Notes under the pieces: generated by a model
Told to the model about the DNA's origin: nothing
The model's input: the letters and a program-made list of their open reading frames with translations, nothing else
Databases searched by the model: none
Part shown: piece after piece, positions 1-21,272 of the stretch
How positions within the stretch are numbered: the stretch's first letter is position 1
How the letters are laid out: each line of letters starts with the position of its first letter
Assembly (NCBI RefSeq): GCF_021735925.1
Contig: NZ_WMEA01000011.1
Coordinates: 1-21,272, forward strand
DNA: 21,272 nt
Direction: 5' to 3'
DNA from: Loktanella sp. M215
GTDB taxonomy: Bacteria; Pseudomonadota; Alphaproteobacteria; Rhodobacterales; Rhodobacteraceae
Program-made: the position numbers and the translations under genes

Positions 1-1758
1 GCCTGCTGCTGGCGCACTGGTGGGTTTGTTTGCGCTCAGGATCTTTCGGGGCGCTGTGCTGGGCTGGACGCCTTCGATGATCCGACAACGCTTTTGGGCT
101 GGGCCGGCGCTCTCGTTGTTTACGTCGCGTGCTGGTGCGTCGCCGTCTGGCTCTGGACGGAGTAGTACCGGCATCGCCGCCCGCCTCCGGCGCGGGCGTG
201 GCGACAGTCACGGCTCTGCGCGGTTTGCCGACAAGAAAGATCTTGCGCGAATGGAGGGCGGCACCGGGCTGATCGTTGGGCGCAATCCCAACACCGGCCG
301 GCTGCTTACGCTATGACGGACCGGCCCATCTGCTGACCTTCGCGCCAACACGCTCGGGCAAGGGTGTGAGCAGCGTTCTGCCGAACCTGCTGCTGGTGGA
401 GCGCTCCGTGCTGGTGATTGACCCCAAGGGCGAGAACGCACGCATCGCGGGGGCGGTAAGGGAAGCGTTCGGCGATGTGTTCATCCTGATCCGTTCGGGG
501 TTACGGGCATGGCGTCGGCATCCTACAACCCGCTTCGACCGGTTGTCGGCTGACAGCCTCGATCTGGGCGATGATGCGAGCTCTCTGGCGGATGCGCTGG
601 TGATAGATGCGGCGGGTCAGGGCGGGGACTCTCACTGGAACGAAGAGGCCAAAGCTCTGATCGGCGGGCTGGATCATGTTCTGTGTCTCCCATGAGGAGG
701 CGGAGCGCCGGTGTCTCGCCACGGTCCGGGAGTACCTGACCTTGTCAGCAGAAAACTTCACTAAGCTGATGGAGCTGATGCAGGAGAGCACCGCAGCAGG
801 CGGTCTGATCGCACGGGCGGCCAACCGGCACCTCGGCAAGGCAGAGCGCGAAGCGGCGTCAGTGGTCTCGACAACGCAGCGCCACACGCACTTCCTCGAC
901 AGCCCGCGGATTATCAGCGTGACGTCCCGGTCCGACTTTCACTTCGCGGAACTGCGCCACCGGATCGCCTCGGTCTTCCTCGTGCTGCCTCCGAACCGCC
1001 TCGATGCCTACGCGCGCTGGCTGCGCCTGCTGGTCACCCGTGCTCTGCAGGAGATCGCTCGGGACGCAGAGGCGGTCTCCGGGCCTCAGGGAGATCTTGC
1101 GGCCGCCACAGCGGGGCGTACAACCTCACGTACCGCCGTTCCCCTCCTCAAGGCGGGTACAGAGCCCTCAGAGGCACAGACAGCCTCTGAGGGTGCCTCT
1201 GAGGGTGCCTCTGACGCACCAGACAGCGTGACGGGGCTCTCTGGGACCGCAGGGCTGCTGCGGATCCCTCAGGCCCCTCCCCTGGCCCCCACAACGCCCA
1301 CCCTGTTTTTGCTGGACGAGTTTGCGGCGCTGGGGCGTCTGGAGGCCGTGGAGCGGGCCATGGGGCTGATGGCGGGCTACGGGTTGCAGCTCTGGCCGAT
1401 CCTGCAGGATATGAGTCAGCTGAAGGATCTTTACGGGGCCCGGGCCAATACCTTCATCGCCAACGCCGGGGTGCAGCAGGTCTTCGGTGTCAACGACTTT
1501 GAGACCGCGAAATGGCTGAGCCAGACCATGGGTCAGGCCACCACCGGGTATCAGACCCAAAGCACGAAGCTCGGTGAGGACCCGTCCACCTCGCACAATG
1601 TCACCGGCCGGGATCTGCTGACCCCTGACGAGATCATGCAGATGCCACCCACTGTGCAGCTCCTCCGCATCCAAGGCCAGCCGCCCGCCGTGGTGCAGAA
1701 ACTGCGGTACTACGCTGATCCTGAGTTTGCCGGATTGTTCGTGGCGGAAGCCGCATGA
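1..1758 (+). pseudogene. traG: TraG/VirD4 type IV coupling protein, 5' partial, frameshifted
   Basis: Inner-membrane ATPase that couples the relaxosome to the type IV secretion channel in conjugation. The start lies before the window. A hydrophobic stretch is seen near 108-165 in one frame, then HGSARFADKKDL and VGRNPNTGRLL (to about 310). The frame then shifts to RYDGPAHLLTFAPTRSGKG with Walker A near 345-365, and VLVIDPKGENA. After another shift near 680 come HEEAERRCL, the Walker B block LFLLDEFAALGRLEAVER near 1305-1345, and WPILQDMSQLKDLYG. Inferred single-base indels lie near 310, 496 (ctgatccg lacks a G of GAT), 535 and 675, with more around 110-190. An Ala/Ser/Glu-rich segment of about 70 residues before Walker B looks inserted relative to typical family members. 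Family assignment is secure; whether the gene is intact in the cell is not. Confidence 0.9.
1183..1216 (+). repeat. 12-bp in-frame tandem repeat inside traG
   Basis: The unit gcctctgagggt occurs at 1183-1194 and 1195-1206, with a partial third copy at 1207-1216. It encodes repeated ASEG within the low-complexity segment ahead of the Walker B motif. This is a likely slippage-prone linker. Because the unit is a multiple of three, copy-number change keeps the frame. Confidence 0.8.
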
Positions 1759-1795
1759 CCGCATTCACCCGCCTTGTTTTGAAAGACCCCACCCG

Positions 1796-2343
1796 ATGAC
1801 AAACCAGACCCCCCTGCCCTCTCTGACGACGAGCTGCGCGAAACGCTGGATATGATCGGCACCGTCGTGGCCTCGGTTTCTGACCGCGTAGACGCCCAGA
1901 CGGATGCGCTGGACCGGCTGAACAAGACCACGACGGAAGCCCGCCAGGCGGCCTTCGCGGCGCAAAGGCAAACCGATCCGGAGTTCTACGGACAGATCGT
2001 TGGTGAAGTGGCTCTGAAGCTGATTGAACGTTCCCTCGCGGACCTGAAAGGGACGATCAGTGATCTCGATCGTCAGACCCGGCAGACGATAACTGTCCTG
2101 AAGCAGAAGGATGACGACCGGGACCGGGACCGCAAGACCCTCACGGAGCGCGAACGGCGTATTGATGCTTTCAAAGCAAAGCTGCCCTCGATGACATTCA
2201 CTGTCGGTGTCTTTGCGATGGTCATGACGCTGCCGGTGCCACGCTTCATCCCCCAGTTTCCGTCTGGCTGCGGTGTTCTCGGCGGGACCTTGACGGAGAC
2301 CAGTGCAAGCTCCTACGCATGCGTGTTCTTTCACCGAAGTTGA
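1796..2343 (+). CDS. Coiled-coil protein with C-terminal membrane segment, downstream of traG
   Basis: About 182 residues if one slip is repaired. ATG 1796 opens in one frame, but SDDELRETLDMIGTVV and everything after it run in the next frame, consistent with one missing base just after the start (near 1799-1802). The middle (about 1880-2170) is charged and rich in Gln, Glu, Arg and Lys and looks helical or coiled-coil. A hydrophobic segment (FTVGVFAMVMTL) lies near 2200-2235, followed by a short Cys-containing tail. It starts 37 bases after the traG stop, so it is probably in the same transfer operon. No named family is recognised; a mobilisation or transfer accessory role is inferred from position only. 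Confidence 0.65.
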
Positions 2344-2367
2344 GCGAAATGCGGTTGGGGAAGAGAC

Positions 2368-2376
2368 TTATCCACA
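2368..2376 (+). promoter_or_regulatory. DnaA box of the plasmid origin
   Basis: ttatccaca matches the consensus DnaA-binding 9-mer (TTATNCACA) exactly. It lies about 110 bp upstream of the iteron array and 255 bp upstream of repA. Just after it, at 2396-2424, gtgtta occurs three times at 11-12 bp spacing in an AT-rich stretch that could be the unwinding element. DnaA box plus iterons is the standard layout of iteron-regulated origins. Confidence 0.75.
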
Positions 2377-2480
2377 GGCTGCTAAAACGAAGAGGGTGTT
2401 AAATAGGTGTTAGACTCTGTGTTAAGCAAAAAATATCGCGTGTAAGATTTTGATTTTGTTGAGATCTTTTTAGGGCGTGC

Positions 2481-2619
2481 GTGTGTAAAAGTACGAAAGA
2501 ACGTGTGTGAAAGTACGAAGAACTGTGTGTGAAAGTACGAAAGGTCGGTCAGCGTGTGTGAAAGTACGAATCGTGGTGACTTTGAGCTTTTTGAACTTTA
2601 GTGTGTGTGAAAGTACGAA
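2481..2619 (+). repeat. oriV iteron array, five 17-bp copies
   Basis: Four perfect copies of gtgtgtgaaagtacgaa lie at 2503-2519, 2525-2541, 2554-2570 and 2603-2619. A variant (gtgtgtaaaagtacgaa) lies at 2481-2497. Start-to-start spacings are 22, 22, 29 and 49 bp; the first two are close to two helical turns. These are the expected binding sites for the RepA encoded immediately downstream. The last copy ends 11 bp before the proposed repA start, so initiator binding there would also be placed to repress repA. Confidence 0.92.
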
Positions 2620-2630
2620 AGGATCCAGTT

Positions 2631-3675
2631 TTGCCTGATGAGAGTGCGGTCAACCGCTCCCCTCTTTTGCCAGACAGGCACCCTCAAGGGGATTTTTTCG
2701 TTTGCGATATTTTTGATGCCGTTCCTAAAGCTGATATGGCTTCAATGGAGCATCCGATCTTTTCGCTTTCGACCAAAACCGGACACTCGTGTCCGTGAGT
2801 ATGAACACAATGGCATAAAGATTGCGATCAAGCCTTCAGTAGACGGACTTGCAACCGTACATGACAGGGACATTTTGATTTACTGCATCAGTCAACTTAT
2901 GACTGCTATCAACGATGGTAAAAAGGTCTCTCCAGCAGTTCGTTTTCGTGCATTCGATATGCTGGTTGCGACCAATCGTAACACAGCTGGATCTGGATAT
3001 GCTCAATTGAAGGCTGCCTTAGAAAGGCTTGCCGGAACCCGGATCAGTACAAACATTGTGACGGGCGGTCAGGAAGTATTTAGAACTTTTGGATTGATCG
3101 AAAGTGCCGAGATCGTGCGTGAAACACGTGATGGGCGGATGCAGGAAGTGGAGGTTAAGCTATCTGATTGGGTATTTAATGCTATCCAGTCAAAGGAGGT
3201 CTTGACCCTCCATCGAGACTACTTCCGCCTCCGTAAGCCACTGGAACGGCGCATTTATGAAATTGCGCGCAAACACTGTGGTGCACAGAAACAATGGCGG
3301 GTTAGTCTGCTGTTACTTCAGAAAAAATGCGGGTCGAACTCCACGCTTCGAGAGTTTCGACGTTTGGTCATGAATATTGTCCTGGAAGACCGGTCACATG
3401 ACCATATGCCTGATTATTCCATTGAACTGGACGAGCAGGATGACATGGTCGTTTTTTCGAACAGGCAGAGCGTCAAATTGGTGTTGCCACAGGCGACAGC
3501 GCCGCAGCTTGATCCGGATGTCTACGAGACTGCACGTATGCTCGTGTCTGGCCATGACGTCTATTATCTGGAGCGGGAGTGGCGAAAATGGTTACCTGAG
3601 ACGCCCCGCAATCCCGAAGCAGCATTTCTGGGATTTTGCAGAAAATGGGTGCAGAATAGAAAAAATACCGGATAA
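2631..3675 (+). CDS. repA: Plasmid replication initiator RepA (RPA family), one frameshift
   Basis: Initiator that should bind the iterons just upstream. The N-terminal block LLPDRHPQGDFFVCDIFDAV reads in one frame up to STK near 2777. The protein then continues as PDTRVREYEHNG in the next frame, implying one extra A in the AAAA run at 2775-2778. Corrected length is about 347 aa, typical for the family. Later blocks include DILIYCISQL, ATNRNTAGSGYAQLKAALER, TLHRDYFRLRKPLERRIYEI and KKCGSNSTLREFRR. The start chosen is TTG 2631, preceded by AAGGA at 2619-2623 (7-nt spacing). ATG 2638 is out of frame with the conserved N-terminus. The 3' end converges on the partition operon. Confidence 0.9.
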
Positions 3676-3700
3676 TTTTAGATACCGGATTTGTTTTTAT
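3667..3700. repeat. Two 17-bp partition-type repeats at the repA/partition convergence
   Basis: accggataattttagat (3667-3683) and accggatttgtttttat (3684-3700) are adjacent 17-bp units sharing accggat. They match the period and core of the array upstream of parA (4651-4735). They span the last codons of repA and the last codons of the convergent small partition gene. They may be a second binding site for the same centromere-binding protein. Confidence 0.6.
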
Positions 3701-3972
3701 ACATGGCCCACGCATCTTCGATGATGACCCCTTGCTGAACGCCCCGACGCCTTGCTTCGTTGGCAATCTCTTCTGAAATACCAGGCATTACTTTGGCATG
3801 AACCTGATCAGTGCGGGGGCTTGGTTTGCGACCGCGCTTCTTTTGGGGCTCCCGTGCAACAAAAACCAAGGGTTTCTCCTGCCTTATCCGTCTTCTCTAC
3901 AGCTTGTGCGCTTCTGTCTTTTTCGCGCGTCTTCAGGCGGCCAAGGTCGATATTGAAGGGCTTCTCAGTCAT
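3678..3972 (-). CDS. Small partition partner of ParA (putative centromere-binding protein), one frameshift
   Basis: ATG at 3972 overlaps the parA stop (3967-3965), so the two are translationally coupled. The N-terminal half (MTEKPFNIDLGRLKTREK) and C-terminal half (REPQKKRGRKPSPRTDQVHA through AWAMYKNKSGI) lie in different frames. One extra A in the plus-strand run at 3861-3865 explains this. Corrected length is about 97 aa. The layout is a basic, probably disordered N-terminus (KKRGRKP) followed by a short helical domain, as in ParG/omega-like RHH centromere binders of type Ib partition loci. The fold is inferred from size and position, not from a clear motif. It probably binds the 17-bp repeats on either side. 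Confidence 0.65.
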
Positions 3973-4633
3973 TTTCCACCTCACCGGCTAGTCGTTGATA
4001 TACAGCTTGCGCAAACTGCGCGGCATTCTCGATGGCTCTATCCATATTACCTTGCGCGGGCATACTATGCAGATCGCCGCCAAACTCAAAAAGCGCAGAA
4101 AAGGCAGCGCGCTCCATCAGAGGGGGATTAATCAGATCCACGCCCTGCTCGGTTAGTGAGCCCGCAATCCCACTGTGCTGCTTGGACTTAATGGCCTTCG
4201 TCATAGTAAAGACGACAGCGTGAGGAATTTTCCGGTCCAGTGCTTCCTCCTCTTCCGCAATAAGCTGTAAAGCTCGTACACCAATCGTTGCGTCCAAGGT
4301 GGTGGCTCGCATGGGGGTAATGACCAGATCAGCCTGAGATATTGCGCGCGAGACTAAGCGGGAGGCTACCCCTTCAAGGTCAACAATGACGATCTGGCCG
4401 TCTGTGTCATGACGCTTGATTGTTTTCACGATGTCGGACTCGCTGACGTTCGACAGAACGGTGATCCGTTCAGGTACTGGACCTTTGTCAGACCACAAAG
4501 TCAGGGACTGGTTTGGGTCGCAGTCCAGCATGACAACATTTGCACCTGCATGGGCAAGTTCGGTTCCCAAAAGGACAGCCGTAGTGGACTTTCCGGCCCC
4601 ACCTTTTGGCGAAGCGATGACAACTGTGGGCAT
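3965..4633 (-). CDS. parA: ParA-type partition ATPase (short, type Ib)
   Basis: Intact 222-aa protein. The deviant Walker A motif KGGAGKSTT lies at residues 10-18 (signature Lys10 and catalytic Lys15). Also seen are MLDCDPNQSLTLW and the Walker B-like IVIVDLEG. There is no N-terminal HTH, so it belongs to the small ParA (type Ib) class rather than P1 ParA/SopA. It moves plasmid copies over the nucleoid together with a centromere-binding partner, here the overlapping downstream gene. An AGGGAG ribosome binding site sits just before the ATG. The upstream region is a 17-bp repeat array that probably serves as both centromere and autoregulatory operator. Unlike most of its neighbours, it contains no frameshift. 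Confidence 0.93.
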   Translation of the reverse strand: MPTVVIASPKGGAGKSTTAVLLGTELAHAGANVVMLDCDPNQSLTLWSDKGPVPERITVLSNVSESDIVKTIKRHDTDGQIVIVDLEGVASRLVSRAISQADLVITPMRATTLDATIGVRALQLIAEEEEALDRKIPHAVVFTMTKAIKSKQHSGIAGSLTEQGVDLINPPLMERAAFSALFEFGGDLHSMPAQGNMDRAIENAAQFAQAVYQRLAGEVEND

Positions 4634-4650
4634 AACTTCTCCCTTATTTT

Positions 4651-4735
4651 ATCCGATATTTTAAGTAACCGGATATATTGATTAATTGGATATATAAGAT
4701 TACCGGATAAGTAAAGATACCAGATAATAGGTAGA
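4651..4735. repeat. parS-like centromere/operator: five 17-bp direct repeats
   Basis: Units start at 4651, 4668, 4685, 4702 and 4719, exactly 17 bp apart. Their first eight bases are atccgata, accggata, attggata, accggata and accagata; the remainder is AT-rich. The array ends 17 bp upstream of the parA start on the minus strand and must cover the parA promoter. Iterated short repeats upstream of a short parA are the classic centromere of type Ib partition systems. Two further copies lie at 3667-3700. Confidence 0.75.
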
Positions 4736-4756
4736 CTCTGGAGGGGGTGGAAGCAA

Positions 4757-4782
4757 GCCACACAAATGTTGTTTTGTGTGGC
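4757..4782. promoter_or_regulatory. Palindrome upstream of the toxin-antitoxin module
   Basis: A perfect 10-bp inverted repeat (gccacacaaa / tttgtgtggc) with a 6-nt centre, ending 21 bp before the antitoxin ATG. Toxin-antitoxin operons are normally autorepressed by RHH antitoxin binding to such palindromes, so this is probably the operator. A hairpin terminator is less likely because no T-run follows. Confidence 0.6.
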
Positions 4783-4803
4783 AGAACGTGCTAGTTCGAT
4801 CTC

Positions 4804-5069
4804 ATGCCCAGACTCTCAATCGACATTACGCCCGAGCAGCATCAAAAGCTGAAAGCCATTGCTGCGCTGAAAGGCGAAAGCATCAAAGAATATGTATTGA
4901 GCCGGACACTTGGGGACACGCCTTCTCTGGACGACATGAGCGAGGCCCGTGCGGTCATAGCCCCGCCAATTTCCTTAAGCCGCGGATTGAGCAAGCCCGG
5001 CGCGGCGAGCTTTCCGTGAAGTCCATAGCGGACATTCGGCGGGACGCACACAAGCAGGCGGGGCTATAA
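4804..5069 (+). CDS. ParD/RHH-type antitoxin, one frameshift
   Basis: The N-terminus MPRLSIDITPEQHQKLKAIA, followed by LKGESIKEYVLSRTL, is a typical ribbon-helix-helix antitoxin sequence. From about 4960 the protein continues in another frame (NFLKPRIEQARRGELSVKSI then ADIRRDAHKQAGL), so one base appears to be missing near 4950-4975. Corrected length is about 88 aa. It neutralises the downstream toxin by binding through its C-terminus and represses the operon through its N-terminal domain. Its stop lies 8 nt before the toxin ATG. Confidence 0.8.
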
Positions 5070-5077
5070 CTGCAGCT

Positions 5078-5382
5078 ATGCAGTCATACGACCTTACATT
5101 AGCGGCAGAGGAAGATTTGCGCGACATCTGGCATGATACCTATCGCAAGTGGGGCTTTGATCAGGCTGAGATGTACTTCAATCAGATAGAGGCATGTTGC
5201 GAAGCCTTAAATAATGGCCCGGGTGCGCTCCAAAGCTAAATGACCAGTTGCCAGACGGCGTCCGTGTTCACCAATGCCAGCATCATTACATCGTCTGGCT
5301 GAGCGAGAGCCGTCCGGTCATAATTGCCATTTTGCACGAACGCATGGATTTTCTGCGGCGGCTAAAAGCGAGGCTGTCATAG
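5078..5382 (+). CDS. ParE/RelE-superfamily toxin, one frameshift
   Basis: Opens with MQSYDLTLAAEEDLRDIWHD and YRKWGFDQAEMYFNQIE, typical of ParE-type toxins (gyrase poisons; the target here is not provable). A stop is met at about 5237. Frame 1 then carries the rest: KLNDQLPDGVRVHQCQHHYI, VWLSESRPVIIAILHERMD and FLRRLKARLS. One base is apparently missing near 5215-5230. Corrected length is about 101 aa, normal for the family. With the antitoxin upstream it forms a plasmid addiction module. Confidence 0.8.
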
Positions 5383-5487
5383 TCTCAGCATCACAGGTCT
5401 GATGGTTTGTGATGCCCTGCAGCGGCGAAAGTTACTACATATAGCAGCTCTGTTTTTACAATGTTCTTGTATTTTGGGAGGTATCAC

Positions 5488-5521
5488 GACACAGTGTCAG
5501 AAATATTCCCAGATGTCTGGG
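5488..5521. promoter_or_regulatory. Two palindromes upstream of the dcm-type gene (putative operator)
   Basis: gacacagtgtc (5488-5498) and cccagatgtctggg (5508-5521) are perfect inverted repeats, the second ending 19 bp before ATG 5541. C5 methyltransferases with an N-terminal HTH of the M.SsoII/M.EcoRII type repress their own promoter by binding an inverted repeat. The methyltransferase here has such an HTH, so an operator role is plausible but unproven. Confidence 0.5.
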
Positions 5522-5540
5522 CACTGGGAGCGTTTACCAT

Positions 5541-6762
5541 ATGACCGAATTTGAAATGCTGGTTCAGCAGACAGGCTGGAGTGTGGCTGAGGCTGCTAAG
5601 GTGCTCGGATACTCTGAAGGCCACGTCTACCGGTGGAAACGGGGCGAAGAAGTGCCGCGGGACGGTGTCATCAATCTGCTGCGTATGCATATCGATACGC
5701 ACAAGGGCGCACAACCTGAAGGAGCCTTCACCTTCATCGATCTCTTCGCCGGAATCGGCGGATTGCGCAAAGCGATGGCCAGTGCGGGCGGGCGTTGTGT
5801 TTACACATCGGAATGGGATGCCTTTGCCCAGAAGACCTATCACGCCAACTTCCCGGACAACCGGCCGATCGCGGGTGACATCCGTGAGGTGGACGCCGCT
5901 GACATCCCCGAGCACGACGTTCTGGTTGCAGGTTTTCCCTGTCAGCCATTTTCCATCGCGGGCGTCTCCAAGAAGAATGCTTTAGGCCGGCTGCACGGAT
6001 TTCAGGATGAAACCCAGGGCACGTTGTTCTTCGACGTGCTGCGTGTTCTGATGCACCACCGGCCGGCAGCGTTCCTGCTGGAGAACGTCAAGAACCTCAA
6101 AAAGCCATGACAAGGGCCGCACGTTTGATGTGATCAAACGCAAGCTGACTGGAGGAGCTGGGTTATACGCTGCATACCCGGATCATCGATGCAGCGAACT
6201 TCGTACCTCAGCACCGCGAACGGATCGTTATGGTAGGTTTCCGCGAAAAGACCGGCTTTTCCTTCGATGATCTTGTTCTGGCTGGCAGGGCGGGGCGCGG
6301 TATGCGCGACGTTCTGCATCCTGAAACCGGGACTGAAGTGCCTGAAAGTCACTTCACGGTAGGTCCGATGCAAAGGTGAGCGACAAATATACGCTCAGCG
6401 ACAAGCTCTGGCAGTACCTGCAGGGATACGCGGCCAAGCACAAAGCGGCCGGCAACGGTTTCGGGTTCGGTCTGGTGACGCCTGACAGCATCTCGCGGAC
6501 ACTGTCTGCACGCTACTACAAGGACGGCTCTGAGATCCTCGTCAGCCGTGGCCCGGGCCAGAACCCGCGCCGTCTGACACCGCGGGAATGCGCACGCCTG
6601 ATGGGCTATGACGACAGCTTCCGGATCCCGGTCTCGGACACACAGGCTTACAAACAGTTCGGCAATTCGGTTGCAGTGCCGGTTTTTGCCGAGGTGGCCC
6701 GCCTGATGCGGCCGCACATTCTGTCGCTGACCGAAGGGCAGGACCTGCGCAAAGTTGGCTGA
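5541..6762 (+). pseudogene. DNA cytosine-C5 methyltransferase with N-terminal HTH (Dcm/M.EcoRII-like), frameshifted
   Basis: Protective methyltransferase of the R-M operon. Residues 1-55 form an HTH (AEAAKVLGYSEGHVYRWKRG). Motif I is FIDLFAGIGGLRKA (about residues 65-78). Motif IV is GFPCQPFSIAG with catalytic Cys134, and motif VI is LLENVKNLK. The frame breaks at about 6103, where the AAAAA run has one extra A. It breaks again near 6150 (extra G) and near 6368 (missing G). Motif VIII (QHRERIVMVGFR), [30 protein letters not shown] and motif X ([16 protein letters not shown]) follow. Corrected length is about 406 aa. The company of Vsr and an MvaI/BcnI-type nuclease suggests a CCWGG, CCSGG or CCNGG target. 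It overlaps vsr by 8 nt. Confidence 0.9.
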
Positions 6763-7238
6763 TGTCCATGACCCCGCAACCCGGAGTCGCAATATGGCGG
6801 CCATCCGCAGCCGCGATACAAAACCTGAGCTGATCATCCGCAAAGGACTGCACGCACAGGGGTTCAGATTCAGACTGCAGGGCCGTGACCTCCCCGGCAG
6901 GCCGGATCTGGTCTTTCCTAAATATCATGCGCTGCTCTGGGTCCACGGCTGCTTCTGGCACGGGCACAGCTGCCCGCTGTTTCACTGGCCTAAGAGCCGT
7001 GAGGACTTCTGGCGGGCCAAGATCGGCCGCAATCAGGAACGGGACGCTGCCACATGGACAGCTGCCCGGGCCGCCGGCTGGCGATGTGGCGTTGTCTGGG
7101 AATGTGCTCTGGAAGGGCAGGGGGCGTCTGTCACCCGGTCATGTCATTGACTCAATAGCGCACTGGCTGTCCTCTGATGCAGATGAATTCTGCATTGAAG
7201 GCCAATGGATTGATAACGCCGCTCACCCGCCTGCTTGA
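6755..7238 (+). CDS. vsr: Very short patch repair endonuclease Vsr, one frameshift
   Basis: Nicks DNA at T:G mismatches that arise from deamination of 5-methylcytosine, and so limits mutation at the sites methylated by the upstream enzyme. Family blocks seen: [40 protein letters not shown] (catalytic Asp), [19 protein letters not shown] (metal-binding Cys/His region), [15 protein letters not shown] and [11 protein letters not shown]. Near 7110-7120 one extra G in a GGG run shifts the frame; the rest reads [20 protein letters not shown]. Corrected length is about 160 aa. TTG 6755 is taken as the start because it gives the conserved MADVHDP. It overlaps the methyltransferase end, as dcm-vsr pairs often do. 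Confidence 0.9.
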
Positions 7239-8539
7239 CCAGATGGCTGCCCATGGGGCGGTACGTTTCTACGCCAAGCGAATTGCTCCGAATGACAACT
7301 CAAAAATCAGGTTTATCTGGGCGGCGGATTTGGCGCCCTGAACATCATTCCGCATGGTCCGGTCGAGGGTGACGACAGTGACCGCGCGGGCAGCGTCCGA
7401 GACAGGGCCAAAGCCATGGTTCGTTTCTTCTGGCTCGATGCTGACGGCCCGACGCCCGCACCCGATGCGCAGCTAATCCTGTATCCGAAATATCCCGAGG
7501 TGCGGATGTCCGGCTTTTTGCGCGGAGCGAAACGTGCACCAGTCGTGCTGATGAGGTCGCGCGACGAAGGCAGAGTGCTGTTTTTGGGGATCTGTGCCGA
7601 TGGCCGGGTTCTGGGTCATGTCGTTGCAGCTGACGATCCCGTTGCCCACACCTTTGACGCAGCAGCGTCCGGTCTCGAAACGACCGGCGTCTTTCACGAT
7701 CTGGAAAAACTGCGCCAAGATGGCACCGACCCGAAGGAAGCACTGCTCGCCGCGCTCCGGCGGATTCACGCCAAAGGCTGGATCGCATCGCAGAAGATGG
7801 GCAGGGCAGGGGTGCCGGCCCCCCTACAGCGCCCGCAACGGCGGCGGCTATACGCTGGAAGCTGAGCTGGGCATCGCTCCGAACGGCTATGCGGATCCGG
7901 ACTTTATGGGCTGGGAGGTCAAGCAATACGGGGTAAACGACTTTACCAGCTACCGTGCAAAAGGCGCTGTGACCCTGATGACGCCGGAACCAACCGGCGG
8001 GCTGTACCGGGATGAGGGTGTCGCGGCGTTTCTGAACCGCTATGGCTATGCCGATAAGTCGGGCAAGGCAGACCGTATCAATTTCGGCGGGATCTACACC
8101 GCCAGCCGTGATTTCCACGCAGACACCGGCCTCATGCTGCGCCTTGACGGGTTCGACGCGGCAACGGGGAAGATCACAGATTTCGACGGCGGGATTGTCC
8201 TGCTGGACCGCGACAACACTGTCGCAGCTTCATGGGGGTTCCGGGGCATTATGGCCCACTGGAACCGCAAGCACGCCAAGGCCGTCTATGTGCCGTCTCT
8301 CATGCAGTTCCCACCGCCGGAGTACAGCTATGGAGGTGTAGTCCAGTTGTGCGAAGGAACTGACGTGCTCCCTCCTGCTGGCGGCGGTTTCAGCCGGAAG
8401 CGTTTACTACGATCCGGGCATCAAGATGGAAGCTGCGGGATCAGCAAAGCCGCTGATCAAGCGCCGGAGCCAGTTTCGAGTCCGGCACGCTGACTTGAAC
8501 GCATTATACAGGGGGGCTGAGGAGGTGGCGATAACATAA
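7210..8539 (+). pseudogene. MvaI/BcnI-family type II restriction endonuclease, frameshifted
   Basis: Restriction partner of the Dcm-type methyltransferase. MvaI and BcnI cut CCWGG and CCSGG and act as monomers. TTG 7210 is preceded by GAAGG at 7197-7201 and overlaps the vsr end; ATG 7243 is the alternative. Successive frames carry AVRFYAKRIAPND, LGGGFGALNIIPHGPVEGDD, YPKYPEVRMSGFLRG, RNGGGYTLEAELGIAPNGYA, the PD...ExK catalytic block DPDFMGWEVKQYG, and YSYGGVVQLCEGTDV. The C-terminus VYYDPGIKMEAAGS through DLNALYRGAEEVAIT is in a third frame. Slips: one missing A in AAAAA near 7305, one extra C near 7822, one extra C near 8371. Corrected length is about 442 aa, longer than MvaI itself, so it has an N-terminal extension. 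Confidence 0.85.
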
Positions 8540-9736: not shown

Positions 9737-11271
9737 ATGGCAGCTCTGGTTTTAGGGAATGCGGAGTATCCCGCAGGTGGCGAACTCGAAAATCCTGTCA
9801 ACGACGCTTTGGACATAAGTGAAAAACTAAAGTCCTACGACTTTGAGGTGATACTCGGGACAGACTGCTCAAAAGCGGCCATGGAAAAAAAGCTTAAAGA
9901 ATTTGGTGATCTTCTCAAAACCCATGATGTCGGAATGTTTTTTTCGCCGGTCATGGTATGCAAATTGATGGTAGCAATTATTTGCTAGCCATCGACACAG
10001 ACGACTCTTCAGAGATTGATGCAAAATACAGCTCACTCTCCTTGGATAAGGTTGTAGAGGTATTGGCAAAATCCAAGGCATTAACCAAGATTATTGTGTT
10101 GGATGCGTGCCGAAACAATCCTTGGAAGAGGGCGTGGCATCGGGATATAGCCATGCGCGGCCTTGCGTCTGTTTATGCCCCGAAAGGCACGATCATAGGA
10201 TTTGCAACGTCCCCCGGTGAAACCGCTGCTGATGGGGTCGGACGGAATGGCACTTATACTGAGGCTCTGTTGCAGCACATTGACACAAAAGACTGCCCCA
10301 TCGAGACAATGTTCAAGCGGGTAAGAAACACCGTCGCCGCCGCCAGCCAAGGTAAGCAGACTACATGGGAACACACATCCTTAGCCGGTGAGTTCTATTT
10401 CAATCTAGGTATCGACAAAATAGTTAAGGAATATGACGAAACCGCTCTTGCAGATGGCCTGTTTGGCCTCGACAACTCTAAGTTGTCACATAAAATTATA
10501 GAAGGTTTGAAGAGCTATAATTGGTATGTTCAAAATCCGGCATTACTGAAGCTTGATGAAAAAAGCGTTAAGCCGATGAGTATTAACAACCTATTCGTCC
10601 TTGGTCGAAATATATATCAAGCCGCTTGTGGATCATCTGGAGCCGCTGACGTTTTTATCGAAGACTTCAAATCGCGCACTGCACAGTTTGGCAAATTGAA
10701 GCGGAAGGCGTTGTTAGACGGGATGCTATTCGAGATATTTTTTGACTCGACAGGTAACCTCCGCCCCAAGATCAAAAGTAAATATTTTGACGAAGTATTT
10801 GACTTACAAAAAATACCCGAACTTAAGGCGAGTTTTGAATTTATTGCGGACACACTATCGGCTGCGGGCGCAAACTTCATCCAACTACCTGGTCGTGGGC
10901 ACGTACTGGACGTTACCGTTCCAACAAGAAAAAAAAAGAAAGGCTATCTTGTTGAATCAGTATTTATAGGCGGACTGGATTTATTTCAGCGTCCGGAAAG
11001 CGATTGGGATGACCTCGATGGTATACCGTTATACTCTAAAACTATCATTGAGAGACTGAACGCAAACCTTTCCCACGAACTTGTCGTCCCTCAGCGCCTG
11101 CTGAATGTGACCTACACCCCTGCATCTGTTGATGAAGACGATGTAATCCCTCATCCCGCACGGATGGAGCATCAAAAGATGATTAGGCCCGCAATCAAGC
11201 TAACCTACGCTGCTGTGTTCGACTCTTCCAGCCACGCCCAGTTCTTCACTGGATTGCGTTTCGCCAGATAG
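9737..11271 (+). CDS. Caspase-like cysteine protease (peptidase C14 fold) with unknown C-terminal domain, one frameshift
   Basis: The N-terminus MAALVLGNAEYPAGGELENP and NDALDISEKL match the metacaspase-like p20 start. A run of seven Ts near 9938-9944 lacks one base. After repair the protein reads FFFAGHGMQIDG with catalytic His (codon 9952) and IIVLDACRNNPW with catalytic Cys (codon 10108), the His/Cys dyad at about residues 73 and 125. GFATSPGETAADGVGRNGTY closes the domain. From about residue 225 to 511 there is a domain I do not recognise, containing a KKKKG stretch. A TTG at 9724 with AGGGAG at 9711-9716 may be the true start if one A in the run at 9732-9737 is extra. Bacterial caspase-like proteins often act as suicide effectors in defence. 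The gene converges with the recombinase 14 bp away. Confidence 0.8.
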
Positions 11272-11284
11272 GTCTGCGCGATCA

Positions 11285-11928
11285 TCAGAGATGGTATTTG
11301 CGGGCGATGTCGAGGGCCTCGGCCTGTTCGGTGCCGATGTATTCTTTCGTGCTCTCGATGCTGACGTGGCCCAGCAGGGAGCTGGGCAGCCCGTAGGTTG
11401 CCGGTCTGCTGGTGGATATAGGTCGGGAAGGTGCGGCGCAGGGAGTGCAGCCCGTAGAGCGCGGGATCGAGCCGAGCCCGTATCAGCCAGCCTTTGAACA
11501 GCCGCCAGAGCTGGCTTTCACTCAGGTGTGAATGCGACCAGCGCACGCCCTGTCCGGTGAACAGCCAGCTGTGCAGCGGCCGCTCGCTGGCGGCTGTAGA
11601 CGCGCAGGCTGTCGCGCGTCACCGCCGACAGCCGCGCTTGCACGGGGCGGGCATTCCGGGTCTCGGTCTTCTTCTGCCGGATCTCGACAATCTCGCGCAC
11701 CCCGAGCGGGGTGGCCACATCGGCGACCCGCAGCCGCACCAAGTCGGAGCCCCGGAAGCAGGTATCCAGTGGCCACGTTAAACAGCGCCAGTCACGGACC
11801 GCCGCAGCTTGCGTCCGGCTGTCCTGCCGCAGCAAGAGCCGGATCAGGCTGACCTCGTCAGGGGTGAGCGGGGGTTTCTTGCCCACCACCTTGCCGCGGT
11901 TCCGTGCCGGTTTCGGAGGGGGTGTCAT
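11285..11928 (-). pseudogene. Small tyrosine recombinase/integrase, frameshifted
   Basis: Read on the minus strand from ATG 11928: MTPPPKPARNRGKVVGKKPP then LTPDEVSLIRLLL. DTCFRGSDLVRLRVADVATP carries catalytic Arg I. After a shift near 11575-11600, GVRWSHSHLSESQLWRLFKG and LYGLHSLRRTFPTYIHQQTG (the HxLR box) follow. A further slip in a CCC run near 11385 restores QLLLGHVSIESTKEYIGTEQ, with the final His and nucleophilic Tyr, and then AEALDIARKYHL to the stop at 11285. Two compensating indels lie near 11780-11800. Corrected length is about 213 aa, a short catalytic-domain recombinase of the plasmid resolvase/XerD-like kind. The GC content is much higher than in both neighbours. It may have mobilised or resolved the adjacent modules. 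Confidence 0.82.
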
Positions 11929-15998: not shown

Positions 15999-16707
15999 GT
16001 GACGTGTCTGCGATTAAGTCCGACTGAGCTGGTGCCTGTTCTTCGGAGCAGCCTTCGCCGCTGCAAACTAGGAGACGAACAGGATCCTGCGTCAAGAGGC
16101 TGGTGCGGCCTGCAAGCCGCAAGGCTGAAAACAAGGCCCCTGAAGCTAGTTACCTCAGCTCGGGCAGGTTTTCGGCCGGTTGCGCCCACAGTCTCTGTCA
16201 CTGGAAAAAATGACAGTTTATGGCAAGGTGTCATTGCCTAAAGTAGCCGTTCGTACCATTTGCAGATAATCTCAGTAACTAGCACAACCTGTTCATTGGA
16301 TGTTAGGCAGTGAAGGTTACGTCGTACGAGTGCAGCCCTTTCGCTTGCGACACGAAACTTGCGCAGAGCCTTAATACATAAAAACTACCAACCTCCGGAT
16401 GTGGTCATTTGCGCTCGAAGCGGCCTTTCGACGTACGGTGGGGCACAGTCCACTTCCGGCCGTACAAGCGTATATCAAAAAGCTTGCATAGTTCAGCTGC
16501 ACAGGGACAAAAAGAAGGAGGGCAGTCATGTTCAGGCCCATGCCTGACTCCTTAAAAATACCCTTAAGGTGTGTTAAGATACCATCAGGGAGGGCGGTGA
16601 CCACTCCATGCGGCGTGATGAGCTTAGCGGTTTGATGACTTACTTTTCCAAACGACTGGTTTATGAGTATGCCTCAAAGCAAAGGTTAATTGGGTCGATT
16701 AGGGCGT
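15999..16707. other. Long stretch without a supported gene
   Basis: Frames at 15999-16241 (+), 15908-16234 (-) and 16359-16547 (+) carry no family sequence. Short inverted repeats are present: ctgtca / tgacag near 16195-16216, caggc / gcctg with a 4-nt loop at 16533-16546, and ccttaa / ttaagg at 16550-16569. The second copy of the 18-bp repeat lies at 16472-16489. A regulatory RNA or promoter region for the next gene cannot be excluded. Confidence 0.4.
16472..16489 (+). repeat. 18-bp direct repeat, copy 2
   Basis: Identical to 12058-12075 (atatcaaaaagcttgcat), same orientation, 4414 bp apart. Copy 2 lies 236 bp upstream of the SEC-C methyltransferase gene, and copy 1 lies 278 bp upstream of the gene at 12336. 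Confidence 0.6.
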
Positions 16708-17622
16708 ATGATGGACTTTCAACCACATGAGCCCTGTCCCTGCGGCAGCGGTGATCTTCACAACGACTGTCATGGTCCCATCCTCTCCGCACCGCCGCAC
16801 AAGCAGCTTCAGGTTGCTCAAGCGCGTTACGCTAGTGGGTGGAACCAAAATGCGGAACGATATAAGGCCCAAGGCCTCTATCATCAGCTAGCGCTCAATC
16901 TTGTCTCGGTTGGAAATATCAAAAAAGTTTTTGATATAGGTTGCGGTCTCGGGCATGGGATTGAAGCTATAAAATCCGAACTACCACCTTTACAAAGCTC
17001 GATCGTTGGCGTTGATGAGAACCCCGATTGTATTTCGGGAGCAGTAAAGCTACTCGGCTTAGAGTTAATCCCAATGGCACATCAGCGCCTCAAATCTAAA
17101 CGGCAATTGAGCGGCCAATTTAGTATAGAAGTCCGAAAAGGACGTATACCCGCTCCAAGCGAAATCTCTGTTATTAACGCAGACATGTTACTTCGTGATC
17201 CGCAGTTCGAAATCTGGCTTGAAGAGCAAAGTCCGTTTGATGCAGTAACGATGTGGTTCATGGGTGTACACAAGGCCCGAAGCATGACCAAAATCTACAA
17301 TGAGATTGGTATTCACTCTGATCGTGAAAACCGCGAAGCACTCGAAAGAAGACAGCTCGAACTCGCATCACGGCTGCTTCATACTGGTGGGGTGTTGCAA
17401 CTGGTTAACCGAGTGGTTTCGAACGATATTGACAGTTATCGCGATACTCTGGTGCAGGAAGCGAAGACCAAGCTTACAGGAAGCGGCCTCAAGTTCTCCA
17501 GTCTCTCTACGTTTCAGTATGAAGAGCCTAATAACACAGGATCTATAAGAGTTTCGACGCCCGGCCTTGATGTAATGGGTATACCAACATTCGCAACTTC
17601 CATCCTAGCACTAAAAGCATAG
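16708..17622 (+). CDS. SEC-C zinc-motif protein fused to a SAM-dependent methyltransferase
   Basis: Intact, about 304 aa from ATG 16708. ATG 16711 is equally possible, and TTG 16690 would add six residues. Residues 3-25 hold a SEC-C motif (CPCGSGDLHNDCHG), a zinc-binding module found on SecA and many unrelated proteins. A Rossmann methyltransferase follows, with motif I VFDIGCGLGHGIEAI near residue 75, VDENPDCISGAVKLLG (acidic motif II), SVINADMLL and FDAVTMWFMGV (post-I/motif IV region), and LASRLLHTGGVLQLVNRVVS. The substrate is unknown. It is one of the few long genes here without any frameshift. Its lower GC and position next to a DNA methyltransferase cassette fit a defence-island cargo gene. 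Confidence 0.75.
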   Translation: MMDFQPHEPCPCGSGDLHNDCHGPILSAPPHKQLQVAQARYASGWNQNAERYKAQGLYHQLALNLVSVGNIKKVFDIGCGLGHGIEAIKSELPPLQSSIVGVDENPDCISGAVKLLGLELIPMAHQRLKSKRQLSGQFSIEVRKGRIPAPSEISVINADMLLRDPQFEIWLEEQSPFDAVTMWFMGVHKARSMTKIYNEIGIHSDRENREALERRQLELASRLLHTGGVLQLVNRVVSNDIDSYRDTLVQEAKTKLTGSGLKFSSLSTFQYEEPNNTGSIRVSTPGLDVMGIPTFATSILALKA

Positions 17623-17948: not shown

Positions 17949-19152
17949 GTGCCAGTAAAAATTAAATATGCCAGCTTATACAGCGGTTGTGGCGGTTTAG
18001 ATTTAGGCTTCGAACGAGCCGGATTTCAACAGCATTGCTCATTTGATCACGACGTAAATGCATTGGAAACACTTCAGAGAAACACAGGCGCAACTGTGAG
18101 GTTAGCTGACCTAAGCAAGCCAGACGCCGACGTAATTCAAAAAGGTATCTGAATCTGACATATTAATAGCTGGTCCACCTTGTCAGGGTTTTTTCTACCG
18201 CCGGAAAAAATGATCCAACAGATGAAAGAAACAAGCATCTGCTAAACGTCGCAGAAATCGCATGTCTTGCCAAACCAAAAGTTGGTATTGATTGAAAACG
18301 TTAAGGGCCTACTTAGCCCCACTAATAAATATCATTATGAAGAAACCGTCTCGAAGCTGGAAAGTTCAGATTACAAGGTAACGTCCAAGTCCTATCTCGT
18401 CTCTGATTTTGGAATAGCTCAATCTCGGACCAGAGTCCTGATAACCGCCGTTTTAGACGAGAAGCCACTGAACCTAAACCTAAAAGCATAAAAAGTCCCA
18501 AGAGGCTAAGTGACATTCTTAGAGGGTCTGAAGATATTATAAATGGTCAAATTTATCCCCTTTCAGAAGAGGGTAATGACTATAAGATTTCGCGGCGAAT
18601 TTCTCAAGGTCAAAAAATTATCAAACGTTAGGTGTGGTATATCTTCAATTCACACATGGAATATACCAGAAGTATTCGGGCAAGTTAATGATACGGAGAT
18701 ATCAATACTAGAGATCATTTCCAGACTACGGCGGCAAAACCGCCGGCGGAGCAACGGCGATGCCGATCCAGTAGAGCCTTATTATATTGATAAGTCATAT
18801 GGATCAGATACTAGCGAGATCTTAAATAGTCTTATTAAAAAGGATATGCTAAGCGTGTCGAAGATTATATCGATATAACGCACACTTTTAATGGAAAATA
18901 TAGACGCCCACATTGGAATGATGTATCGCCAACAGTTGACACGAGATTTGGGCAACCACGGTATTTCTTACATCCTGATCAACACCGAGGTTTTACTGTG
19001 CGTGAAGCAGCACGCATACAAAGTTTTCCTGATAGTTATAAATTCTTTCGGCTCAGATCAAGTAAACTTCAGAATGATCGGAAATGCCGTACCACCAAGT
19101 TTTTCCATACAAATTGCTGAATATATACGTGATGAATGGTTTAAAAAGATGA
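17949..19152 (+). pseudogene. Second DNA cytosine-C5 methyltransferase, heavily frameshifted
   Basis: Motif I YASLYSGCGGLDLGFERAGF lies near 17970-18030. After slips at about 18145 (GG) and 18190 (T run), ESDILIAGPPCQGFSTAGKN carries motif IV with the catalytic Cys. After a slip near 18283, VVLIENVKGLLSP (motif VI) and DFGIAQSRTRVLITA (motif VIII) follow. Further slips near 18475, 18613, 18841 and 19048 connect RLSDILRGSEDIINGQIYPL, WNDVSPTVDTRFGQPRYF, HRGFTVREAARIQSFPDSY and motif X FRMIGNAVPPSFSIQIAEYI. With a slip in AAAAA at 19143-19147 it ends in a TGA overlapping the next ATG. Corrected length is about 399 aa. GTG 17949 is taken as the start; TTG 17913 is possible. Target sequence unknown. 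AT-rich, unlike the first methyltransferase. Confidence 0.85.
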
Positions 19153-20186
19153 CACCTATTGAACTACAACGGAAACTACAGATTTGGTGCCAAGAAGACT
19201 ACGACGGATCCATTGGCATAAGTGATATTAAGAAGGACATAGAGTTTTTTGTCACGAGAGCTCTATAATGAATATGACGTCACAAAACATGGTGGTCATG
19301 GAGATTTTATCTTCCGGTTGGCGCGATGGATTGGATCTGCAGAAACTGATGACGACCAGAAATCTTTATTTGTACTATTGCGTCACCTAATTTTCTTTGG
19401 CGACAATGAACTTGATGCAGCTTACCGAACAGCATTCAGCCGTCACGTAGTATCTTGGTTGATGAACGATCAAAAATTAAATGTATTCTCTACAACGGCA
19501 GATGCAGATTTAAAAATCAATATTAAATAGGACTTTGCTCACTGAGATTACTGACAGTTTTGGGCTACGTAGCTTTTTGGGAAAAAATAATCTACACGGA
19601 AGGCCACGATATACATGGTATGCTCATCGTAAATCATGGCAGCGACAGCAATTTATAGATACCGAAATTGTCCGGAATCTTGGTGAAAAACATAAGCCAC
19701 ATAGTTTTATTTGAAGATTTCGTTGGCAGCGGTTCGCAAGTTGAGCCCTTTCTAAAGCTTGCGTGTAATGTCGATCGGAATATAAAAGTTTTGTTCTGTC
19801 CTATGTATATCCTGCTCGCGGGTGCCCAGTTAGCACTAAGGTTACAGAGACAATATAGAAACTTTAGTTTTAGTCCTGTCCTTGAAATACCTCAAAAAAT
19901 GTTTCATAACTAAAAATGCAATAGATGGCGAACACCCGGATTTTCCAACAATTAGGAAAACTGCAAACGTCGTCCATCCAAAGGTAGTTATCCCCGGATC
20001 TCCTCAAGATTTTGGGCCATTTGGTTTTGACGGGCGTCAATCAGCAAGGAGCTACTGGTGGCTTCATTGTTACATCGACAAATTGCCCGGATAATACTAT
20101 ACCTCTTATCCATCGCAGGCGAGCGGGATACTGGGAACCACTTTTTTTGAGAACATCAAGGGAAGCTTTTAGAGGTGACGCCATGA
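19149..20186 (+). pseudogene. Phosphoribosyltransferase-like protein (PRTase of conflict-system type), frameshifted
   Basis: ATG 19149 overlaps the inferred methyltransferase stop. The N-terminus is MTPIELQRKLQIWCQEDYDG. After a slip in six Ts (19245-19250) come ELYNEYDVTKHGGHGDFIFR and FVLLRHLIFFGDNELDAAYR. After a break near 19530, LLTEITDSFGLRSFLGKNNL and PRYTWYAHRKSWQRQQFIDT follow. IVLFEDFVGSGSQVEPFLKL at about 19701-19760 looks like a PRPP-binding loop of a phosphoribosyltransferase fold (hydrophobic strand, acidic pair, GSGSQ). Later NCPDNTIPLIHRRRAGYWEP LFLRT is in yet another frame. The family resembles the PRTase domains described by Burroughs and Aravind in predicted immune systems; that match is from memory. 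The stop probably overlaps the next ATG at 20183. Confidence 0.6.
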
Positions 20187-21272
20187 CTAATCCCTTTCAA
20201 CAATCTATATCATACCGAATCAAATACCAGCTGATAGGTTTGTAGAGATCTTTAGTCCCGTTTTACTTCCGTGAAAGTAAAAACGCATGAGCTGTTCCAA
20301 CCTCGGTAGTGTAGTATTAACTGGCCTGCAAGGTTCCGAAAATCAGCCTTACTGAATTTATTAAAACCAGAAGTTTTGATTGCTTATAAAAATAGTTCTG
20401 AACCTTGGCCATTACCAGTTCATTGCTCGAAGTTTTTATCTGCAAGTATCAAGTTCTTCGGTCAAGTGGTGCTTTTAGAACAACCATTCGGCCATATAGT
20501 GGAACTGTAATATCTGGAAGAAGTAGATAGCAACAAGAATATATTAGGTTTATTCTTTGGAGACTATCTAAATTACTGGATAGTCGACGATCTTTTGATA
20601 AAATATTGAGCTTCTCTGGTCCGATCGCGGCGCTAAGTTAGCCGATTTTATCGGCGCCGAAAATTTCGGAAAACGAAGCTTAATAATTTCGCCTCGAAAG
20701 AGAAACAAAAAAGGATTCAAAAGTGCTGGTTCGGTGTTCTTTGATAATGTCGATACATTTCATGCACTGAGGGAAGGTAAATCTCTAATAGAATTCTTCA
20801 GTACGAAAGTTTTCTTAAATTATAATCTCTCCTGACTTTCCGTAAAAGCCTTAATTTTACAAAGATCGAAGCCCGGTGATCCAATTGGAAGCATTGCAGA
20901 TGCTTTAAAGTCCAGTGGAACTCATACCGATCGATTCTCTACTAATTTTTATCACCATAGATCAATTTGAAGATTTGATGGATTTGGAGCGGGATAATGG
21001 CGAATTAGAACTCCGATTTTTCGCAGCGTGATAATGAGAAGTTCTGCTGGGAAATCGCGATAAAAGAGTATCATATAGAGTTTGAGCAGGACCGTATTCA
21101 ATGCTGAAGGGCCTTCAGGGATTTGGTGAAACAACTCCTTTTACTGAAGAGGGAGGGAATATGAGCTTGTTGATATCATCAAGATTTTGCGAGGCGGCGA
21201 GAATCGAAGAACGTTGTTTCAAGACTTATGTGAGGAGACGTATTTGATAGACGGCTGAGATCTGCCGAGTTC
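20183..21272 (+). pseudogene. ORC/CDC6-like AAA+ P-loop ATPase, 3' partial, heavily frameshifted
   Basis: ATG 20183 with GAGGTG upstream opens MTNPFQQSISYRIKYQ. In the next frame ADRFVEIFSPVLLP continues. Near 20310-20370, with one missing G in ggttccgaaaatc, the frames give VVLTGLQGSGKSALLNLLKP EVLIAY, a clear Walker A. LGLFFGDYLNYWIVDDLL (about 20545-20600) and SLIISPRKRNKKGFKS follow. IFITIDQFEDLMDLERDNGE at about 20945-21005 is Walker B (hhhhDQxE). The end shows RVSYR, PYSMLKGLQGFGETTPF and, in another frame, LVDIIKILRGGENRRTLFQD. A frame reading FDRRLRSAEF reaches the window edge, so the gene probably continues. It resembles the ORC-CDC6 family AAA ATPases of predicted conflict systems. 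At least eight indels are needed. Confidence 0.6.

Follow-up and report, generated by a model that had tools for sequence, protein, structure and literature searches.

A plasmid-borne operon encoding a DNA methyltransferase, a PRTase-CE protein, an ORC/CDC6-like ATPase and a CARF protein in Loktanella as a candidate nuclease-free defence unit

What would an operon do that sets a DNA-methylating enzyme beside a phosphoribosyltransferase (PRTase)-like protein and an ORC/CDC6-like ATPase? We investigated this question at one end of contig C11 of Loktanella sp. M215 (NZ_WMEA01000011.1), one of 11 contigs of a 5.2-Mb genome; the entire contig, 21,272 bases long, is called the window below. We found a fourth gene of the operon beyond the window, encoding a CARF protein, and we read the whole as a plasmid-borne, defence-like unit of methyl mark, ATPase–CARF switch and toxic PRTase effector that contains no nuclease, a reading to which we give an even chance. 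The C5 methyltransferase would mark resident DNA at one fixed sequence, and the ATPase and a tandem-CARF protein would form an ATP-dependent switch integrating a DNA cue with a negatively charged, nucleotide-like ligand. The switch would keep the PRTase-CE protein inactive until triggered; once released, the PRTase would act as a toxic effector on phosphoribosyl pyrophosphate (PRPP), nucleotides or nucleic-acid bases, halting the infected cell or an invading replicon with no nuclease involved. From the data below we infer the defence function, the complex formation, the trigger, the ligand, and the chemistry and target of the PRTase.

In the window, the operon frames are split into short pieces, which an earlier reading made from the letters alone (hereafter, the sequence-only reading) had ascribed to homopolymer slips. 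Two sister contigs of the same genome bear this out. C11 aligned with C2 over its full length at 99.0% identity with 110 gap openings (94 single-base, 59 within homopolymers), and matched C3 in two overlapping stretches. Since C3 overlaps itself after about 25.9 kb (11 kb at 98.3%, or 1.7% mismatch), the three contigs appear to be copies of a single circular plasmid about 26 kb long. Because C3 disagrees with itself, and because the C11–C2 gaps are mostly single-base and about half of them lie in homopolymers, errors of sequencing or assembly are the best explanation of the broken frames; gene decay fits less well and was rejected, as the slips differ among the three contigs and C3 is self-inconsistent. 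The proposed coordinates and motifs proved correct, with GTG at 17949 and ATGA overlaps at 19149–19152 (methyltransferase/PRTase) and 20183–20186 (PRTase/ATPase), and C2 keeps both overlaps.

The identities proposed for the three products held (Table 1). Three methyltransferase pieces in the window match PF00145 (8.6e-8 to 1.1e-13); on C2 the frame is open, giving 410 aa from TTG or 398 aa from GTG, and the intact product matches the same family, DNA_methylase, at 3.4e-60, above the cut-off. The motifs PCQ, ENV, QxRxR and GN(A)VPP have established roles in C5 methyltransferases, and PCQGFS, ENV, QxRxR and GNAVPP are conserved across 43 aligned copies. In the PRTase region, three window pieces match PF24390 (0.0066, 6.2e-6 and 2.2e-7, the last alone passing the cut-off) and two further pieces had no Pfam match, whereas the intact protein reached 1.6e-25 (90.9 bits; cut-off, 27) and matched the PADLOC profile PRTase_III-A at 1.7e-15. 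A type I PRTase fold is predicted: the AlphaFold2 model has a predicted local distance difference test score of 93.7, and its listed structural matches either are phosphoribosyltransferases or bear no functional title. Of the ATPase, two window pieces given to Pfam had no match, and a profile that we built recognised it in one window piece (9.6e-12). On the sister contigs it was recognised by PF24389 (C2 copy, 2.2e-27, 96.5 bits; cut-off, 27), as was the copy in locus L017 of Pseudorhodobacter aquimaris KCTC 23043 (131.4 bits), where the operon spans about 1010-6304. The gene is intact on neither sister contig: the frame slips close to the end in the C2 copy and within the first third in the C3 copy. 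The slipped pieces were left unjoined, and intact relatives were used. Residues of Walker A and Walker B are near-invariant in 46 copies, and assignment to ORC/CDC6-like P-loop ATPases is thus supported by profile and motifs. Searches of PDB with the PRTase, CARF and ATPase sequences gave chance-level matches only.

Table 1. Genes of the operon, with positions in the window (C11)
Feature	Position	Strand	Family	Remarks
C5 DNA cytosine methyltransferase gene	17949..19152	+	PF00145	broken in C11, intact on C2
PRTase-CE gene	19149..20186	+	PF24390	broken in C11, intact (343 aa) on C2 and C3
ORC-CDC6-like P-loop ATPase gene, N-terminal part	20183..21272	+	PF24389 (C2 copy)	continues beyond the window
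CARF gene	past 21272, outside the window		PADLOC CARF6	after the ATPase gene on C3

The sequence-only reading had described a three-gene operon and suggested looking past 21272 for another gene; the tight packing with overlaps stands, but a fourth gene had been missed. On C3 it is complete (341 aa), and its start overlaps the ATPase gene by four bases (TTGA); the C2 copy is broken. Its product matches the PADLOC CARF6 profile PDLC01923 (2e-55) and no Pfam family. VIA re-alignment of Foldseek candidates placed CARF/SAVED proteins first, with Can1 as the best fold match along most of the length, so a CARF6-family protein with a CARF fold is predicted; Can1 itself has two CARF units in one chain. 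No effector domain was seen in the fold comparison. Because the fourth gene encodes a predicted CARF-fold sensor, gating by a small-molecule ligand besides, or instead of, DNA is probable. As the sequence-only reading had noted for its three genes, no nuclease is recognisable: the four products gave no match to a nuclease family, whereas a type II restriction-modification system would have a cognate restriction endonuclease next to its methylase.

We then asked how widely the four genes recur. A scan of 84,980 species genomes with a CARF alignment, in which exact peptide patterns were required and which therefore gives a lower bound, yielded 50 loci. Profiles of our own proteins detected all four families in 44 of the 50, and 40 contain the four genes in order, each covering more than 80% of its profile. 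The association is therefore not chance, and the suggested check for co-occurrence elsewhere is thereby answered. In L017 all four genes are open, and the CARF protein is 58% identical to ours. Ten loci are incomplete. Contig ends truncate L024, L042, L065 and L066; genes are split in L018, L028 and L029, the last of which is also at the end of its contig; neither methylase nor PRTase was seen in L054 and the fragmentary L056; and L060 has a different methylase. According to record titles and the labels of the ATPase tree, the full loci span eight phyla (Pseudomonadota, Acidobacteriota, Planctomycetota, Nitrospinota, Bacteroidota, Verrucomicrobiota, Nitrospirota and Thermodesulfobacteriota). 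The tree, which took in 31 of the 40 full loci, mixes phyla; for example, a betaproteobacterial bin is next to one from Nitrospirota, and a bin from Verrucomicrobia is next to Roseobacteraceae and a Mangrovicoccus bin. This mixing fits horizontal transfer, although bins may be mis-assigned; the loci with the C5 enzyme are not one clade.

This recurrence bears directly on whether the locus is a type II restriction-modification (R-M) system that lost its nuclease among chance neighbours. The catalytic part of the methyltransferase resembles M.HaeIII (2e-31), and in two relatives a Vsr endonuclease gene lies directly downstream of the CARF gene (L041:10998-11471 and L044:7623-8084), a position expected where an active C5 methylase adjoins. 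However, four genes keep the same order in eight phyla, and none of 13 shared flanking families is common to more than six of the 50 loci, so we rejected such a remnant as hardly credible. The nuclease-like families among these 13 are Vsr-like (5 loci) and DUF4365 (4 loci) only, names that rest on profile matches of three members. A DUF4365 gene abuts the CARF gene at L033:10993-11997 and occupies the same place in the closely related L037 and L051 (profile match in L033 only).

Between methyltransferase copies, the core of the target-recognition domain (TRD) is more conserved than the catalytic half (mean pairwise identity, 0.54 and 0.42, respectively), whereas R-M families that differ in specificity usually diverge in this core. 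It is therefore likely, as judged from these alignments, that the methylases share one target motif across phyla. Such conservation would also suit a regulatory motif, and ORC/CDC6 proteins are replication factors elsewhere; the operon could accordingly be imagined as an epigenetic unit in which fixed-motif methylation and the ATPase control replication or expression, with the PRTase and the CARF protein as metabolic sensors and no role in defence. Against this stand the mixed phyla of the ATPase tree, the commonness of the PRTase in retrons and the place of CARF6 in a defence library, and we regard a purely regulatory role as improbable.

A search for PRTase-CE in 398 genomes avoids selecting by the CARF gene; 18 loci passed the cut-off, one of them our own. 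Next door to the PRTase in nine of the other 17 is a retron-type reverse transcriptase. Five have PRTase, ATPase and CARF genes in order; in two (L136 and L137) the neighbours are NADAR and a large methylase, which in L136 is of the DUF1156 family, and one has none of these neighbours. L136 and L137 represent a different, conflict-type cluster, and a SNF2/NOV_C helicase protein was among the genes scanned in L137. From the ATPase side, a class-wide PF24389 search gave much noise, with matches in 60 of 385 genomes at E 1e-3 but in eight over the cut-off, one our own; of the seven others we examined six, leaving out G315. Two of these carry CARF6, namely L101, a sixth PRTase–ATPase–CARF locus, and L100, in which a protein kinase is fused to the ATPase, CARF adjoins and no PRTase matched; L103–L106 showed none of the four families with the first profiles.

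The neighbours of PRTase–ATPase–CARF are exchanged between loci. Near the six such loci we found a SIS-like-HAD protein in five, a PfkB kinase in four and NADAR in two (same strand in L150, opposite strand in L144). The SIS-like-HAD protein (641–653 aa; L101, L144, L148, L149 and L150, four of the five with PfkB) carries a weak label, as Pfam SIS matched in one of five, below the cut-off, the other four being close relatives of that protein; these loci form one clade in the ATPase tree. An N6 methylase lies downstream of the core in L139, a ParB-N4/N6 methylase gene lies on the opposite strand beyond PfkB in L101, and in L060 and the viral-collection contig L158 an N4/N6-type methylase (PF01555; 6.3e-14 and 1.2e-14) replaces the C5 enzyme. 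By these comparisons, the ATPase and CARF proteins are the most constant part, the PRTase or kinase is exchangeable, as expected of an effector, and methylases or sugar-phosphate genes make up an outer layer. Because three unrelated DNA methylase types adjoin the core, the pattern argues that a DNA methyl mark matters rather than C5 chemistry. This favours one half of the division put forward in the sequence-only reading, in which methylation would be the mark of self and the ATPase–PRTase pair would act on DNA lacking it.

The NADAR genes bring in another chemistry. NADAR occurs near the PRTase-CE loci L136, L137, L144 and L150, and members of this family reverse guanine ADP-ribosylation (PMC11125620, excerpt). 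The ATPase and PRTase might thus phosphoribosylate bases of unmarked DNA, or nucleotides, under control of the CARF ligand, with methylation protecting the host and NADAR reversing the modification. A NADAR profile found no member in the 50 CARF-selected loci, and we give this variant a slim chance.

What the CARF protein senses was approached through cyclases. Two cyclase families, by Cas10 palm and SMODS profiles, were sought in 23 host genomes (our own and those of 22 of the 50 loci). The Cas10 palm profile had no match in our own genome and weak ones in six of the other 22 (three over the cut-off; best, 5.6e-7); it is unspecific, as an E. coli control also matched and single Pseudomonas genomes gave five or six matches, and we take the weak matches to be probably GGDEF cyclases. 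SMODS cyclases occur in four of the 23. No CD-NTase is among the four operon products; our genome has two SMODS-type nucleotidyltransferase genes on other contigs (G000:C4:85829-86308 and G000:C5:87926-88393), possible sources of a CARF ligand. These two genes and the fold closest to Can1 would suit an ancillary effector of type III CRISPR or of a cyclic-oligonucleotide-based antiphage signalling system (CBASS), reading cyclic oligonucleotides. Given the lack of strong Cas10 and the rarity of SMODS in these genomes, it is not favoured as a general explanation and seems to us very unlikely.

The same results leave more room for the PRTase as a messenger synthase, prompted by a DNA cue that the ATPase reads, with the CARF protein reading a phosphoribosyl nucleotide and the output lying in the ATPase or elsewhere. 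In its favour, no cyclase gene lies in the operon of the CARF protein, the CARF and PRTase proteins co-vary (r 0.84), and the SIS-like-HAD and PfkB genes of sister loci could supply sugar phosphates to the PRTase. However, no effector domain was seen in the CARF protein, the kinase–ATPase–CARF variant has CARF without a PRTase, and PRTase-CE occurs in retron loci without CARF. We consider a messenger synthase unlikely.

Several observations weigh against the defence reading with a toxic PRTase. The PRPP loop of catalytic type I PRTases consists of an acidic pair and TGxT; here E188-D189 is invariant, but GSGxQ replaces TGxT, and because of this departure from the textbook form catalysis appears unsure. 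Plain Foldseek of the CARF model ranked transporters and KaiC first (template modelling score about 0.25), and the two halves of the protein match each other weakly by sequence (E 0.057). Just before the TRD core, beside motif VIII, lies a variable stretch (identity, 0.22). The PRTase–ATPase–CARF order belongs to a minority of the PRTase-CE loci, no C5 methylase was found in any of the 17 within the fetched stretch, and L054 retains ATPase and CARF genes with neither PRTase nor methylase. A role of methylation as the mark is weakened by the five SIS-like-HAD loci, in four of which no methylase was seen among the scanned flanking genes. Finally, the four-gene system is rare: among 398 sampled genomes of the phylum, a full CARF match occurred in our own only, with a weak one in G585.

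The location on a plasmid admits yet another explanation, namely addiction: loss of the plasmid would remove the methyltransferase, unmethylated DNA would appear, and a longer-lived ATPase–PRTase pair would kill the cured cell. The small plasmid does carry RepA (PF10134) and ParA-like genes, which is compatible with the defence reading as well. Two regions in the first 12 kb resemble other plasmids, the rep/par region one of Roseinatronobacter (80% identity) and an R-M region one of Gemmobacter (83%). Against addiction, contigs longer than 100 kb (plasmids among them are possible) carry 25 of the 50 relatives, and a search of 72,556 PLSDB plasmids yielded no relative of the CARF protein; searches of INPHARED with the CARF protein and of PLSDB with the operon DNA gave nothing useful. 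Addiction is therefore quite improbable in our view.

The proposed defence unit shares parts with known systems. An ORC-like ATPase adjoining or fused to CARF6, in the order enzyme–ATPase–CARF, is found in CARF6/STK-AAA-CARF (PADLOC PDLC01910-01925), whereas our operon has a PRTase for the kinase, separate genes and an added DNA methyltransferase; kinase–AAA+–CARF proteins have been described (PMC4012209, excerpt). Retron type III-A, which comprises reverse transcriptase, PRTase and a winged-helix protein (PMC12548924, excerpt), shares the PRTase-CE family; the operon has ATPase, CARF protein and methylase instead of a reverse transcriptase, of which no match was found on C2, C3 or the window; the same seed detected one in nine of the 17 other PRTase-CE loci. 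In RqlHI and DprA-PRTase, likened here by description, a PRTase-fold protein is proposed as a toxic effector held by a partner, which is a helicase domain/RqlI or DprA there and would be the ATPase and CARF protein here; PRTases are treated as toxins or effectors in the excerpts on these systems (PMC4670107 and PMC9122126), as they are in those of retron papers. The bacteriophage exclusion (BREX) systems also join a DNA methylase with an ORC/Cdc6-clade ATPase in one defence unit, BrxC/DUF499 being such ATPases in BREX and related systems (PMC12839542, excerpt), whereas our operon has a PRTase and a CARF protein; BREX genes received no dedicated search. Can1 and other CARF proteins of type III CRISPR differ in that the operon's CARF protein has no nuclease domain and its operon no cyclase. 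Type II R-M shares a stand-alone C5 methyltransferase as a mark, whereas the operon has no nuclease-family product and a conserved TRD core.

Several immune systems share PRTase effectors, whose mode of action has been called unknown (PMC9122126, excerpt). The operon joins such a PRTase with what are probably its switch, its ligand sensor and its self-mark, so that cue and target could be tested in one construct. A CARF sensor in a cyclase-free operon raises the question of the ligand sensed, and the conserved methylase recognition core predicts one shared target motif across phyla. Among open-licence full texts, we recognised none describing methylase, PRTase, ORC-like ATPase and CARF protein as one system, although an earlier description is possible; PRTase-CE is named in none of them, and CARF6 only in an unrelated context. 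The accessions PF24389 and PF24390 stand side by side in Pfam, and PADLOC lists CARF6 as a family, so the parts have been noticed before, and perhaps their link as well.

Other genes of the window also merit mention. Upstream of the operon, 16690-17622 shows weak SEC-C and class I methyltransferase matches below Pfam cut-offs, and PADLOC mads_2 at 4.4e-7. A second, classical R-M module at 5541-8493 comprises a broken C5 methylase, a Vsr endonuclease (4.3e-33) and an MvaI/BcnI-family restriction enzyme (1.1e-31 on the C3 copy). Pieces of a phage-integrase family recombinase lie on the minus strand at 11205-11928 (PF00589, 1e-17 on the C3 copy), and a gene for a caspase-like peptidase, which might also serve in defence or cell death, lies at 9737-11271 (Peptidase_C14, 1.2e-22 on the C3 copy).
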